Below, one piece after another: positions 5,140 to 64,000 of a DNA stretch of 64,000 nucleotides. The stretch's first letter is position 1. Each line of letters begins with the position of its first letter. The notes under the pieces were generated by a model. The model was not told where the DNA came from and did no database searches. It saw only the letters and a program-made list of their open reading frames with translations. Made by a program: the position numbers and the translations under genes. Origin of the DNA: Arctopsyche grandis (lineage: Eukaryota > Arthropoda > Insecta > Trichoptera > Hydropsychidae); contig NC_135355.1 in NCBI RefSeq assembly GCF_051622035.1, positions 21,220,986-21,284,985 of the forward strand, read 5' to 3'.

Positions 5140-40372
<35,233 letters not shown>

Positions 40373-42875: not shown

Positions 42876-44176
42876 ATATATTTATTTATTTATTTTAAAC
42901 AGACCATTGTGGCATAACAGGAATTCCTAAAGCGCCACAATGGTCAAAAAATATAACACAAAAAAGAAACAAAAACAAAATAACAATTAAACATAAACAT
43001 AAATACATCCATACATACATAAAAAATAGCATTTAATAATAACAGATAAAGTAAAAATATCAAATAAAATATAGCATAAGGAATGCCTTGCACCTACAGC
43101 CAGTTTCAATAAATATGTAAGAAACAACTACAAATACAAAACATCCCTGTAGGCCCAAATGGAAGAGAGTTAATCAAAATTTCACTCATAAATCACAATC
43201 AATCATGAAAACAATGATGAGCGCAGACTACCAGATAAATGGGTTAGAGTAATTTCCGACAATTTACGCTCACTAAGGTGGAAAATATCACATTCAGTCT
43301 CGGCAGCAACGATTTCATTAAGAAGTCGGATAGCTCTTGGAATAGGAGCCATTCGAAAAAGGACTGTGCGGGCAGGAGGTACAGCCAACAAATGATGATG
43401 TCTACCACGCACATAGTGATTAGGGACATAAAGCCCCAACTGCTCCAGCAACAACGGGCATGACGTATTACCACGTAAGAGCAGGAGAACGAAACGAATT
43501 AATGAGAAGTTTCTCCGAAGTTCAAGGGAATTATACCCAAGCATGCCCAAAAGGAAAGGAGTGGGGTAGAGATATGGGTAATACCCATATTCTTTCCTAT
43601 ATAGGAAACGAAGAAATGCTTTTTGCACTTTCTCAATCATCAGAGAGTAATTTGCTTCATGCGGATTCCACACAATCGCATTATACTCTAGCTTACTTCT
43701 CACAAGCGAATTGAAAAGCAAGCGAGAAGACAAAGGATTGGAGAATAATCTTGCATATCTCAAAACAAATCCAAGTCGACGAAAGGAAACGTCAGCCACT
43801 TTTTTGATATGGTTGTGAAAGGTGAGCTGAGGATCAAAAGTGATACCCAAATCGACAATAGATTCCACACGCTTCAACAAGACGGATCTAATGGAATATC
43901 CGTGACAATAGAGCGAATGTGCACGTCCATAGCTCATAATTGCACATTTGTTTAAATTAAGTTCAAGGCCTAAACTAGAACTGAACTCCAAGACAGCGTT
44001 AATATCAGCTTGAAGGAGAGAGGCTTGCCTCTCATCCTTGACAGCAAAAAATAATTTAACGTCGTCAGCAAACAAGAGACATGATGCATTACATAAAACT
44101 CTAGGGAGTGGACCCCTGAGTAACACCAGATCGAGTAAAAAATGAAGGAGATTCATAAAGACCATATATGAATATA

Positions 44177-44178
<2 letters not shown>
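42876..44178 (-). mobile_element. jockey-like LINE, 5'-truncated
   Basis: Coding part 44178-43203 and 3' UTR 43202-42896 with a CCATTGTGGC / GCCACAATGG hairpin (42903-42950), ending in an (AAAT)n tail at 42882-42895. The 5' edge falls in a (TA)n tract (44180-44210). A second 3' UTR of the same family lies at 49500-49870. Confidence 0.88.
43203..44178 (-). pseudogene. LINE reverse transcriptase, C-terminal half
   Basis: Open for about 325 codons: LPRVLCNASCLLFADDVKLF with catalytic FADD, LELNLNKCAIMSYGRAHS, VDLGITFDPQLTFHNHIKKV, RSKLEYNAIVWNPHEANYSL and a conserved C-terminus. The palm N-terminal half and endonuclease are missing. Translation of the neighbouring TA tract extends the frame artificially. 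Confidence 0.85.
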
Positions 44179-45791
<1,613 letters not shown>

Positions 45792-45796
45792 TATAA

Positions 45797-45865
45797 TTTC
45801 GCTATTCCGTCTGTGTGTCTGAGATAACGTTCGCCGTACTATAAGGGCGAAATCACACAGTGCGG
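45797..45865 (-). repeat. GTACGGCGAACG small repeat
   Basis: TCGCTATTCC ... GTTCGCCGTACTATAAGGGC and GAAATCACACAG is the reverse complement of 49868-49920 and, in part, of 12791-12911. Confidence 0.7.
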
Positions 45866-46254
45866 TATGTGGGATGTTTTTTATAGATAGTTTTAAACAT
45901 ATATAAAAAATGTGGTATACCTGGCACGTATACAACGACCGTCTACCACGAACGACCGGTACGCCCCGCCCCTTTAGACGTTTTTCGGTCAAATTGTATG
46001 GTTTTATTTATCCTTCCTTGAAAGTGATCGATAACGGTTTTAAGAAATATAGGAGAACTTGTGGACGTACCACATACCGCATACCACGCTGTGTGATTTC
46101 TCCCTGAAAGTCGTTTCGATTCGACATACATTTGTACGTAAGCTAGAAGCGTAGTGTTGGAAGCGTCCAACAAAACGACGTACGAATGCAATACGAACAA
46201 TAACAACAGAAAAAATTTCTATATATACTTTTCGATGCGAATATTTCGAATAAT

Positions 46255-46310
46255 ATCTTAATATGCCATAACCCGTGCGATGATATTTCATCGGGCACAA
46301 CACTAGTAAA
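46255..46310 (-). repeat. SINE-like fragment, GATGAAATATCATC family
   Basis: CGATGATATTTCATCGGGC and CACTAGT are the complement of the head of the copy at 16125. Confidence 0.5.
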
Positions 46311-46324
46311 AAATATAAAAGTTC

Positions 46325-49499
<3,175 letters not shown>

Positions 49500-49505
<6 letters not shown>

Positions 49506-49870
49506 TTATTTATTTATTTATTTAATAGTTTTGGACCATTGTGGCATTACAGGAAGAACCTAATGCGCCACAATGGCCTACATTTGAAAAAGATATAAAA
49601 AAATGATATAAAAACAAGTATACTGTAAATAAAGGAAAAAAGCAAAAGCAGAAAACATGGTAAAATAAAATAATAAAAAAAAGTAACAAAAGGAAAATAA
49701 TACCTCATTCAGAGAGAAAAAAAAAATAACAAAAGTGTAAAAATTAAAAATAAAATCCATAAATCCCATTCTTTGTTTACACTGAGCCAAATTAAAATAG
49801 TATATAAAAATGTACAAAAGAGAAAGAAAAAATAAAATAAAATAAAACAAAATATGAATAAAAAATAAAA
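49500..49870 (-). mobile_element. LINE 3' UTR fragment
   Basis: (TTTA)n then GGACCATTGTGGCATTACAG and GCGCCACAATGGCC, the same hairpin as 42903-42950, followed by A-rich sequence. No coding part survives. Confidence 0.8.
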
Positions 49871-49920
49871 TCACAGTGTGTGTGATTTCGCCCTTATAGT
49901 ACGGCGAACGAGACACACAG
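49868..49920 (+). repeat. GTACGGCGAACG small repeat
   Basis: GTGTGTGATTTCGCCCTTAT, AGTACGGCGAACGAGACACA: complement of 45797-45865. Confidence 0.7.
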
Positions 49921-49938
49921 ACTAAATTATTATTATAA

Positions 49939-49954
<16 letters not shown>

Positions 49955-50019
<65 letters not shown>
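49955..50019. repeat. (TA)n tract at RTE 3' end
   Basis: About 65 bp of TA abutting the (CAT)n 3' tail of the next element. Confidence 0.95.
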
Positions 50020-54307
<4,288 letters not shown>

Positions 54308-59293: not shown

Positions 59294-61808
59294 ATAATTT
59301 ATATTCATGTGGGAAAAAACCTGGAATATTAATACGAAATTTCAACGTGCAAGCGAATCCCAAAAATCAACTGTAAATTTATGATTCATGTTGATTAAGT
59401 ATTTGTTTTTTTTGTTTTCAACCTAACTAGCAGACTACAATTTTCTATCTATAATGCTATTAACACATCCATCTTACAATATATTTATAACTATAATAAT
59501 ATGAAGAATCATAAACTTAGGCAAATGACAAACTTCACCCGGGCTAAATGACCGTCCGTCGCAATAGTGTGCTTTTATACACATATACAAAAAATAAAGG
59601 TGACCGAGGGATGAATAGGCTGATAAATTTATATTACGCATTCAAGAACATATGAAGTATATCGAGTACGCAAATCAAACAACAAGAATTACATTTAAGT
59701 GAAAATGTTGAGCGCACACAACCGCAAACGAATGGAGAGATCATTTTATCAGTTCTGGGGACTATTGCTAGAGCTACAAAATGTTAAGTGACATCAAATA
59801 CTAAAGAGTTTCAATAAGTAACCCACACTAACAGAATATGACATGTTTATGCTCTTCCACAGTAAACCTAGATTAAAAATTTCATGCACTTCGTTTCAAA
59901 AGATTTATGACATTGTTCACAATACAGAATACACAATATGTATAAAACGTTGAGTCAATAAACATTGGAGGCACTGTAATGCAATGAAGCAATGGAAAGA
60001 GCTCTTCAAATTGCCGAAAAAAAAATACGAAAAAAGACATGTCTCGAAACACCAAAATCAAGGCAACTAGACAGCTCTTTTCATTGCTTCTTTCTTCATA
60101 TATTCAATATATGGATTGAAACAATTTTTCAACTATGAAAAATAGATTAAGCCTAAATTTCTTACGATATATCTAAATAAAATAATAATCAGCTCTTATT
60201 CCTCTCATTTATGATAGAAATTTGTGAATAATTGTCACAAATCCCTTAATAAAATCCTTAATATAAAAGTTTCAATTAAAAACGCCCTAAATTAAATACA
60301 TTTAATTAATAAAAATGGGAGTCAAAATTTGGGATCATTATTTTTTATTAATGTGATATGTACAAAACCGAAAAACTCGGTGCTTATGAAAAAAATTAAT
60401 ACAAATAAATTCGATTCAAGCGATACCATAAAAACCTACGAAGAAAAACAAAATTTGATGAATTTCTTAATACTTTCAGTCGCAAAGTGCGTGTTTATTT
60501 AGTCGCAAAATTATTGATTATTAAATATCTATCAACGACACTAATGAAAACTACTTATCACGACTCCAATTATTTAATATTAACATTAGACAGAAATCAA
60601 TGATTTCAAATAGCAATTTATTTTACTCTTTGAACAGAGCTGACTATGGACATTGACAAAAGGCAATATGAAAAGTCTTCAATCAATAAACGTGATACAT
60701 ACATATATTATTCAAACCATATGTTCTTTTAAATTGTAATTATAATATAAAACGGCATTTTTTTTTATTTTGTACAGATATTACCTTAACACACATATAT
60801 TTGCACTGTTAATAGAGTATGAATGTCGTTTAAATTTAATGGTTAATATATAGGCTATGCTCATACCTACAATCTCAGTGAACATATTTATTTCTCCATG
60901 AATATTTGCAAACACATAATCTGCAAGGTGATTTATGATTATTTCGCTTATTAATAAAAATGTACAATTGCGAATGAGAAGTTTATCACCTTGATATAAA
61001 AATTGTTTAAGTGTTAAAATGTTTATATTATACAAATTTTTTACTCCAATGTGTATACAATATACCAACAAAAATATTTAAATTAAATATGTGAATGCAA
61101 ATGTTACTCTTTAAGGTAAAAAAAAATACTGAGCAGCAATAAAAACATTCCACATATTTCAGTCTCATAAAAGGAGTTAATAAAAAAATCCCTCCTTCAA
61201 TTATATTCCAAATGACCATTAATTATGAATTTAACTAATACATAGTGAACAACCGCAAGTCAGAGTACCACATTTATATTTTCATTCAACTCATTCGCAT
61301 TGTCCAAAATGTGAATAAAAAGTATATTTAAATGTGCGTTTTACATATTGAATTTAATATTTTAATTATATTTCATTTAACACAAAACAAATATGTATTG
61401 TATTAATCAAATGAATGTTAAAATCGAATATTATGATTACCACCAGAAAAGAAAAACAAAAAAATTATAAATACCCATTTGGGAGTTTTAGTAAACACCC
61501 AAATCGAAAAAGATTAAATATTTACTCATCTTCCCGGTTTAAATTTTTTGTGGTGTTACAGAATTCACATCCAAGTCAAAATTAAATTAGAATCATGTCT
61601 CAAATACTACAGTTAATTAGTTTTACTGGAAATATGAAGAATTTCCTAAGTGATACATAAATGTAATATAAATAATAACTCAAATTATCATTCAGCCCAA
61701 ATACATAAGTTTATATTCGAGCATTTATCTCATAATGATAAAAAGAGAAATATTAAATGTAAGAAATCACTCGGACTAATTAAAAATCAAGTTGAATGTA
61801 CTAAATAA
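59291..61808. other. Intergenic or long 3' UTR of the ZSWIM8 homologue
   Basis: AT-rich, unusually poor in the TE repeats that fill the rest of the window, which suits a long 3' UTR. No transcript end is evident and no ORF is recognised. Confidence 0.35.
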
Positions 61809-62459
61809 TCAGGTATTCTTCAATTGAGGATAATTCTTCGATACCGATCCTTGCCACGGCTGGCTACCACCCTGACACTGCCTGACTCTACCCCTACCGC
61901 CACGACCTCCACGCCCACCACGCCCTCGCATTAGCCCTCGATCTGCCATTTCCATGCTTGAATTTCCTCCACCACTCTCAATTCTCTCCCGACTGTCTTT
62001 AAGCTCAGAAACTAAAATATAATCATTATTTCTGTGAGATTCTTGAAAAGAATTTTCAATCTCTTGTCCATATTGTGATCGATACAAATACGAAGTTGAA
62101 CAATCAGAAACTATATTGTGAGAAGACCTGATAGACTGTAAAATTTCAAAGTTTTGCATGTTATTATAAAAGCCTTTGCAATGTTGCTGAATGTCCAGAC
62201 CTTCTGGTCCCTCAGAGCACGATTGCAAATAAACAGGATCGGAGGACGGTAATTTGTCCCCCACATAATCAGGAGGAAAGGTCACTTGTGGTGGGGCTCC
62301 TACATTCTGAAGAGAAATAACATTGCTCTTAGGTAAATAGCACTCAGAAGAATCACCAGAAGCTTCAGCAGGTGTAGGAGACGCTGTAGGGGAAGGAGCC
62401 CCAGACGTGGAGGGCGGGGAGCGACCAACCCCGCTGCCACTCGGCTCCGAACACCTTTG
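61809..62459 (-). CDS. Candidate stop-codon readthrough extension of the ZSWIM8/Dora homologue
   Basis: Immediately after the TGA at 62460, in the same frame and with no intron, 216 sense codons follow before TGA at 61811-61809. The product begins with a Ser/Pro/Thr/Gly-rich stretch (SGVGRSPPSTSGAPSPTASP), continues with acidic and Ser-rich sequence, and ends in an RGG box (RGRGGRGGRGGRGR) and NYPQLKNT. Base composition is richer in G+C than the AT-rich DNA around it, as expected for coding sequence. Explanations are UGA readthrough, an alternative splice form, or long 3' UTR open by chance. An acceptor-like TTTCTCTTCAG ends at 62307. Spliced from the phase-2 donor at 62612 it gives an immediate stop, but from the phase-0 donor at 63625 it would enter this frame. 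Confidence 0.5.
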   Translation of the reverse strand, partial: QRCSEPSGSGVGRSPPSTSGAPSPTASPTPAEASGDSSECYLPKSNVISLQNVGAPPQVTFPPDYVGDKLPSSDPVYLQSCSEGPEGLDIQQHCKGFYNNMQNFEILQSIRSSHNIVSDCSTSYLYRSQYGQEIENSFQESHRNNDYILVSELKDSRERIESGGGNSSMEMADRGLMRGRGGRGGRGGRGRVRQCQGGSQPWQGSVSKNYPQLKNT

Positions 62460-62526
62460 TCATTTACTATTGGCTTGTAGTGCAGCAGTTATTTTTGTCC
62501 AGAGGTCTTTGTGACAGGATTTTGAT
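62460..62526 (-). CDS. Zswim8: ZSWIM8/Dora homologue, last conserved exon with stop
   Basis: Follows TTTTTTTTAG. It encodes SKSCHKDLWTKITAALQANS K and TGA at 62462-62460. Vertebrate ZSWIM8 also ends within a few residues of its KELW block, so this is the conserved end. The five exons in the window give 342 aa plus stop. The stop is TGA followed by C, a context known to be leaky, and the frame continues open (see 61809-62459). Confidence 0.9.
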
Positions 62527-62612
62527 CTAAAAAAAATTAATTAATTTCAACCGTTAACAAAGCAACTATTTATGTAATAACGTACAAAATAAAATAATGA
62601 TAATATATTAAC

Positions 62613-62762
62613 CGTCTAATACATTGCAACCATTCTTTGAACTGGTTGGTACCCTCGGGTGTCAAATGTAAGGCAGTTCTGGCTGATACAACCACGTTTG
62701 CAAAATCTTCATAGTCAGATATTGGTAGATGGTACAGCATTTGATGCATACATTGTATATAC
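62613..62762 (-). CDS. Zswim8: ZSWIM8/Dora homologue exon
   Basis: Follows TTTCTAG and ends at donor GTTAAT (62612). It encodes YIQCMHQMLYHLPISDYEDF and TALHLTPEGTNQFKEWLQCI, matching the penultimate block of ZSWIM8. Phase 2 at both ends. Confidence 0.93.
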
Positions 62763-62833: not shown

Positions 62834-63064
62834 ATCTGCTGACATTTCTGTACCAAAGGAGCAAGAGGACCTCGCAAATGTTGCATAAAGAGTGTATGAT
62901 TATTTCTCGCTAAATATTCAGCTGATTCCATTGCCAAATCATACAACACAAATGGACTAATCACTGAATTTACAGCACATAGACAAAATTGGTGAACATA
63001 CTGGGTACCCAATTTTTTAGATACTCTGAGCAACCATTTCACATTCTCTCCATATGGGGGCGTT
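62834..63064 (-). CDS. Zswim8: ZSWIM8/Dora homologue exon
   Basis: Follows CATGTTTTAG and ends at donor GTAAGG (62833). It encodes TPPYGENVKWLLRVSKKLG, TQYVHQFCLCAVNSVISPFV and ...LVQKCQQ, a close match to the ZSWIM8 C-terminal helical repeat region. Both ends are in phase 2. Confidence 0.95.
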
Positions 63065-63332: not shown

Positions 63333-63538
63333 CTGCTGTATTTGTTTTGAGGACGATCATCGTGCACCCGTCTGGCTTGTGCTTCTAAAGCTAACATTCC
63401 AACTCTGTATGCAGCTAATAGTGCACGTAATTGTTGTGGATTATACTGATGTGGTCGTGGTGGACCCCTTGGACTAGCAGCACGTACAGGTGCTGCAACA
63501 ACATACTGTACTGGAGCTCCAAAGGGTACACCATAAAC
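63333..63538 (-). CDS. Zswim8: ZSWIM8/Dora homologue exon
   Basis: Follows ATATTTTAG and ends at donor GTATTT (63332). After a low-complexity start (Pro, Ala, Arg, Gln) it encodes LRALLAAYRVGMLALEAQAR and RVHDDRPQNKYSR. AAYRVGMLALE is diagnostic of the ZSWIM family C-terminal region. Enters in phase 0 and exits in phase 2. Confidence 0.94.
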
Positions 63539-63625
63539 CTAAAATATTATAGAAATTACATTGAATTAGACCATAAAATCATATACAATAAATAAAAATA
63601 AAATTTTCTATAAAAATAAAAAAAC

Positions 63626-64000
63626 CTGCATATGATGCGGTGGTGGAGGCATAGGTGGTGGATGATGAAACTGAATATGCAGTGGATGATATGCAAATCC
63701 ATAAGGTGCCATTCCTAGAGGCGCGATTGGAGCTAATGGAAGTGGGGCAATTGCGGTCAGTGGTTGCATTAAAGTGGGTTCTGGTTCAGGGTCTAAATCT
63801 CTATCTACTTCTCCAGCTGGAGCGTGCCTCAAAAATAATTCATACCAATATTTGGCAACGGTAAAAAGCACTTCTGGAAATACGCCACCACCTTTAGATG
63901 CATTTTCGACGGTAAGGCAAGCCCTCTCGAGCATAGGATCACTTTGCTCTTTGCATTGTAAAACAGCACGTTGAATCTCGTTGTGATTGAGAGCATGAGC
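63626..64000 (-). CDS. Zswim8: ZSWIM8/Dora homologue, internal exon cut by the window edge
   Basis: Runs from the right edge in frame (AHALNHNEIQRAVLQCKEQ), through MLERACLTVENASKGGGVFP EVLF, to a Pro/Met/His-rich linker ending HHMQ at donor GTTTTT (63625). The LNHNEIQ and LERACLTVE blocks match the C-terminal half of ZSWIM8. This protein is the substrate receptor of the CUL3-type ligase that destroys Argonaute bound to highly complementary targets (target-directed microRNA degradation). The N-terminal BC-box, cullin box and SWIM zinc finger lie beyond the window. Confidence 0.93.

Follow-up and report, generated by a model that had tools for sequence, protein, structure and literature searches.

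Directly behind the TGA stop codon of a ZSWIM8/Dora gene, and in the same frame, a coding-like open extension of 216 codons (61812–62459, minus strand) was found near the end of the 64,000-nucleotide stretch of DNA analyzed here (the window). Readthrough of this stop codon, to which we assign a probability of roughly 0.6, is the reading that we favor for the origin of an extended Dora. Ribosomes would then probably pass the UGA from time to time and thereby produce a longer protein.

The Dora gene and its stop codon

Near its end, the window carries the 3′ part of the gene on the minus strand, and the five coding exons there splice in frame upon translation. They are located at 63625–64000 (open at the window edge and ending in phase 0), 63333–63537, 62834–63064, 62613–62762, and 62463–62526, the last of which is the final canonical coding part and ends in SKSCHKDLWTKITAALQANSK, the same C-terminal end as in intact insect homologues. 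The first four were supported by in-frame translation and tblastn, and the third, which encodes part of the ZSWIM4-8_C domain (PF21055), additionally by Pfam. The canonical part matched this family with an E-value of 1.2e-56 and human ZSWIM8 in PDB entry 9rwz with an E-value of 1.6e-49. When 100 kb were scanned by tblastn, six insect Dora proteins gave collinear HSPs over approximately 20 kb of the same contig, upstream exons included; the gene extends upstream of the window in the genome. The window gene is assigned to ZSWIM8/Dora on the grounds of its ZSWIM4-8 C-terminal domain and of the collinearity of its exons with insect Doras. In a tree of the C-terminal region comprising the window sequence and 35 of 73 retrieved Dora proteins, the window sequence, which fills fewer than half of the retained columns and has a branch length of 0.54, adjoins Lepidoptera and one further relative with a support of 100/99; it is assigned to the insects and to no particular order. 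Exon 1 of the gene (contig positions 21303923–21304051, minus strand) has a GC3 of 0.96 over 43 homology-supported codons, compared to 0.17–0.37 in eight later exons, and behind the homology-supported part the open frame continues into HPP and AN repeats.

The 73 Dora proteins, six of which are from molluscs, were retrieved by a protein search with the third of the exons listed above. Sixty of them end no more than 13 residues from a conserved LW motif, as does the protein of the window, and the remaining 13 are incomplete, retain introns, or represent alternative models. Among the ends near LW, 25 carry NSK and 19 carry NGK; the canonical end in the window reads ALQANSK-TGA-C. Because 60 of the 73 proteins end at this point, the TGA at 62460–62462 (minus strand; TGA CAA AGG), the proposed readthrough site, is regarded as the ordinary, ancestral Dora stop and not as a recent nonsense mutation. 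A premature stop created by such a mutation was ruled out, since the homologues share the same end.

To the age of the sequence context, two further gene models are relevant. Those of Eumeta and Blattella continue beyond the Dora stop in a different frame, and they were back-translated under the constraint of the conserved C terminus. The Eumeta model forces a TGA-C, and that of Blattella gives TGA-(C/T)AA-(A/G)GG, which is compatible with the TGA CAA AGG of the window; the next codon differs. The agreement of both back-translations with the window suggests, without proving it, that the TGA-C context at the Dora stop is old. The preliminary description had called UGA-C the commonest leaky context in insect readthrough genes. 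TGA-C is described as favored in readthrough genes, and a bumblebee study with 851 candidates relied on it to estimate false discovery (PMC7826183). The UGA-CUAG motif is not the context of the Dora stop, and the RNA behind it forms no stem-loop beyond chance (z = +0.26, with 120 of 200 shuffles folding as well).

The open frame, its coding signal, and its composition

The frame remains open from 62459 to 61812 and terminates at a second stop (TGA followed by T; 61809–61811, minus strand), at which the GC content changes from 46% in the extension to 24% in the 3′ UTR. This confirms the 216 open codons behind a TGA-C that had been noted beforehand, and the accompanying claim that such an opening is unlikely by chance was borne out as well. 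Given the base composition of the extension itself, the probability of 216 open codons, calculated as (1 – p_stop)^216, amounts to 4.3e-6, and none of 2000 simulated sequences stayed open over this length in any of nine models (three training sequences, each with Markov orders 0 to 2). On both strands of 160 kb of the genome, 24 of 19,368 stop triplets precede at least 216 open codons; the other 23 belong, by eye, mostly to exons, retroelement ORFs, or simple repeats, with a few unassigned. Among the 968 TGAC sites in the 160 kb, the one of Dora alone precedes an opening of this length. When the 476-Mb assembly (189 contigs) was searched in six frames with the extension, one match was obtained, the extension itself, and because of this single match an origin from a repeat or transposon was ruled out.

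Retroelement and repeat sequences were observed elsewhere in the window. One retroelement reverse-transcriptase ORF is present in two copies, which by eye are almost identical across long regions, at 5907–7567 (plus strand, split into several frames) and 50034–52994 (minus strand), and there are further ORFs that appear retroelement-like by eye at 25513–28203 (minus), 46284–49247 (plus), and 43206–44237 (minus). Long TA-type simple repeat arrays (45504–46007, 49213–50018, and 52144–52994) read IYIYIY in several frames and thus give rise to long chance ORFs. Exons at 15057–15380 and 19908–20210 (minus) resemble, by eye, an alanine-glyoxylate aminotransferase 2 type protein.

The coding signal of the extension was assessed with two codon models, a larger one derived from 1049 Dora codons and a smaller one derived from 342 codons inside the window. 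In the larger model, the extension scores 0.183 bits per codon in frame 0, compared to –0.119 and –0.149 in frames +1 and +2 and values near –0.4 in the 3′ UTR. This score was reached by none of 2000 composition-matched stop-free nulls and by none of 13,592 control windows; in the smaller model, 28 of the 2000 nulls and 11 of the 13,592 control windows reached it. One antisense frame of the extension, which contains 13 stops, has a score almost equal to that of frame 0 in the larger model (0.154), and in the smaller model it scores 0.022 vs. –0.014 for frame 0.

The first 25 codons (A1; 62385–62459, minus strand) are Ser/Pro/Gly-rich, have a GC content of 68%, and are devoid of coding signal in frame: their score is reached by 914 of 2000 nulls in the larger model, where frame +1 is higher, and by 1677 of 2000 in the smaller one. 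This GC content is matched by only one of 788 coding 25-codon windows of Dora. The GC3 of A1 (0.60) is reached by 19 of the 788, with all ten listed starts in exon 1, and because of these coding windows, the high GC3 was set aside as proof of non-coding DNA. In the 26 codons that follow (A2; 62307–62384, minus strand), a coding signal is present in frame, the score being reached by one of 2000 nulls in the larger model and by 39 of 2000 in the smaller one. Similar results were obtained for the segment from 62306 to 61812 (1/2000 and 18/2000, respectively). We consider it well supported, from a single genome, that the extension is protein-coding in the Dora frame with the exception of its first 25 codons.

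The Ser/Pro/Thr-rich character that had been ascribed to the extension applies to about its first 40 residues and, by eye, not to the remainder. Likewise, the RGG box with which it was said to end is present, as a tri-RGG box (RGRGGRGGRGGRGR; 61887–61928, minus strand) encoded by mixed Gly and Arg codons, but it occupies residues 178–191 of the 216 and is followed by another 25 residues. The tandem structure of this segment is restricted to a weak 9-nt array of 2.9 copies. Weak matches of the RG-repeat region were obtained to Sm D1 (E-value 0.0053) and SERBP1 (E-values 0.17–0.19), and no Pfam family was found on the extension at E-values up to 10. A search of the protein database gave no homologue of the extension at the thresholds used; its sensitivity is limited, since a query that included the last 21 canonical residues also listed no Dora, although the database holds 73. 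No homologue was found at the thresholds used in two DNA collections (viruses, bacteria, and archaea), and a canonical Dora exon had no relative in the genome_contigs and viral_contigs collections. None of the 73 retrieved Dora proteins displayed a counterpart of the extension. In the Dora model of Megaselia scalaris (P0036), exon 4 is followed by a Ser/Thr/Pro-rich tail of approximately 158 residues instead of the canonical last exon, and this tail shows no alignable similarity beyond chance to that of the window. The last exon of the Megaselia model may be a genuine alternative one, or the gene predictor may have circumvented a readthrough stop.

Proposed readthrough and alternative explanations

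In the reading that we favor, the Dora mRNA would bear a leaky UGA-C stop at which most ribosomes terminate to give canonical Dora, while a minority would insert an amino acid and continue for 216 codons. The resulting C-terminally extended isoform would carry a disordered Ser/Pro/Thr-rich linker and the tri-RGG segment, and the UGA would be bypassed by translation, not by splicing. Readthrough is favored because of the exact frame, the ancestral stop, the UGA-C, and a length and disorder that are usual for long insect extensions. Annotated fly extensions range from 4 to over 1000 residues, most of them from 8 to 300, and according to FlyBase curators, many of the longer ones are of low complexity and show features of disorder (PMC4528330). 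The median readthrough rates obtained by ribosome profiling in the fly are 5.2% where the extension is conserved and 1.7% where it is novel (PMC3840789). Of the features by which insect readthrough is recognized, the window Dora has both an in-frame coding-like region behind an ancestral stop, the first 25 codons being without signal, and the favored four-base context (TGA-C). The earlier proposal of readthrough is supported in part: the coding nature of the extension in the Dora frame is well supported, and readthrough appears, as far as can be argued from sequence, to be the best available mechanism. Among the papers listed by text searches, no title or abstract opening concerned readthrough of this gene.

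The canonical end could also be joined to the extension by the removal of an exitron, i.e., an in-frame intron inside a coding exon. A hypothetical 84-nt GT-AG intron (62384–62467, minus strand; ATA/GTAAAT ... CCTTCCCCTACAG/C), in phase 1 on both sides, would be removed from some transcripts together with the TGA. Its ends, phase, and length fit, seven of eight measured Dora introns being 71–87 nt long, and the coding signal starts in 62384–62307 and not before. When the codons of the extension were shuffled, an equally good pyrimidine tract in this phase appeared in only 66 of 2000 sequences (first 300 nt scanned), and it appeared in 313 of 5000 when shuffling was confined to the first 51 codons. 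Before the TGA, the last exon contains no more than two GT dinucleotides, both in phase 1, and the candidate donor (62467) scores 3.2, which is above three of the eight real donors scored leave-one-out, although 14 of 97 exonic GT decoys equal it. However, the GC content of the candidate intron is 64% (0.643), compared to 11–25% (0.106–0.254) in the eight measured Dora introns. Its acceptor at 62384 (CTCCTTCCCCTACAG/C) scores –8.7, a value attained by 98 of 119 exonic AG decoys, compared to 2.7 to 8.9 for the real acceptors, which are T-rich; the splice matrices behind these scores were built from only eight Dora introns with junctions placed by eye. The 84-nt intron is thus disfavored by its composition and acceptor quality. 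Longer variants, in which the same donor is joined to phase-1 acceptors at 62300, 62111, 62042, or 62012, the last with a score of 8.2, would have a GC content of 43–53% and would excise segments with coding signal, and splicing from 62467 to 62012 would remove 456 nt of the extension that bear much of this signal. Taken together, we regard an exitron of either size as unlikely.

The extension might instead be a non-coding, partly GC-rich 3′ UTR that is open by accident, as could be suspected from the lack of a homologue in the searches described above, from the absence of coding signal in A1, and from the antisense frame that scores nearly as high as frame 0. A chance of about 4e-6, the codon signal, the single match in the genome, and the mixed codons of the RGG box argue against this and render it quite improbable.

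As a competing explanation, the preliminary description had put forward an isoform in which the donor behind 63625 is joined to the acceptor AG at 62307–62308 (minus strand; TTATTTCTCTTCAG/AAT). The second part of the extension would here replace the conserved C-terminal domain. The phases indeed match, as both sites are in phase 0, and the motifs are good: the real donor, itself part of the matrix used, scores 8.2, and the acceptor scores 4.2, which is within the real range and equaled by four of 119 exonic decoys. A further phase-0 acceptor, with a score of 5.2, is present at 62136. Such an isoform would, however, discard the conserved PF21055 domain, and it accounts neither for the same-frame coding signal in A2, which it would make intronic, nor for the 51 open codons before 62307 (approximately 0.07 by chance), which makes it very unlikely. 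The donor of exon 4 would require a phase-2 acceptor, and this phase occurs neither in the four YAG acceptors that have 9 or more pyrimidines in 13 positions nor in the six best by the Dora matrix.

Slightly less probable still is that the downstream part is translated on its own, in the manner of a dicistronic transcript, for instance from the first in-frame ATG (which encodes the Met of MQNFEILQ): this ATG is present in the extension, but the open frame and the coding signal reach well upstream of it in the Dora frame. Finally, UGA encodes selenocysteine in some genes and its editing would give UGG, but selenocysteine insertion or A-to-I editing at this codon is hardly credible, given no Rfam match at the gathering score in the window, no SECIS among three hits down to an E-value of 10 in 60700–62600, and an A that is preceded by G, a poor editing context.

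Possible role of the extension and comparison with known systems

ZSWIM8, Dora, and EBAX-1 serve as the CUL3 receptor in target-directed microRNA decay. Human ZSWIM8 grips the RNA to either side of the trigger site with three loops; decay is severely reduced when all three are mutated, and from weak density the 3′ flank is suggested to exit AGO2 beside a C-terminal HEAT repeat (PMC12803205). A tri-RGG tail at the C terminus could add RNA affinity near this HEAT repeat, and since the loops hold the RNA flanking the trigger and their joint mutation impairs decay, this constitutes a concrete, testable hypothesis. The extension may be disordered and RNA-binding and may tune microRNA decay, for instance via added affinity for the trigger RNA that is embraced by ZSWIM8. 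It is conceivable, if doubtful, that regulated readthrough creates a minor Dora isoform whose tri-RGG tail offers the CUL3 ligase an extra RNA contact next to the C-terminal HEAT repeats, along which the 3′ flank of the trigger RNA runs in human ZSWIM8, and that the efficiency of termination would thereby tune the microRNAs that are destroyed. If translated, the extension would bring the factor that confers specificity on target-directed microRNA decay under the control of a recoding switch; otherwise, it would be one more member of the large class of insect readthrough extensions.

The canonical protein of the window is a clear relative of ZSWIM8, Dora, and EBAX-1 throughout, but differs from the 73 retrieved Dora proteins in its open extension. 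With RGG-box RNA-binding proteins such as SERBP1 and Sm D1, the extension shares a tri-RGG segment without domain homology. As in exitrons, an in-phase 84-nt GT-AG pair spans the Dora stop, whereas the GC content and the acceptor of this candidate are unlike those of Dora's own introns. Sets of insect readthrough genes are available for Drosophila, Anopheles, and the bumblebee, with kel, hdc, Syn, and oaf as the classic fly cases. The case for the window Dora is drawn from the sequence of one genome; like the members of these sets, it displays a UGA-C at an ancestral stop, an in-frame coding-like extension of usual length, and a low-complexity start.
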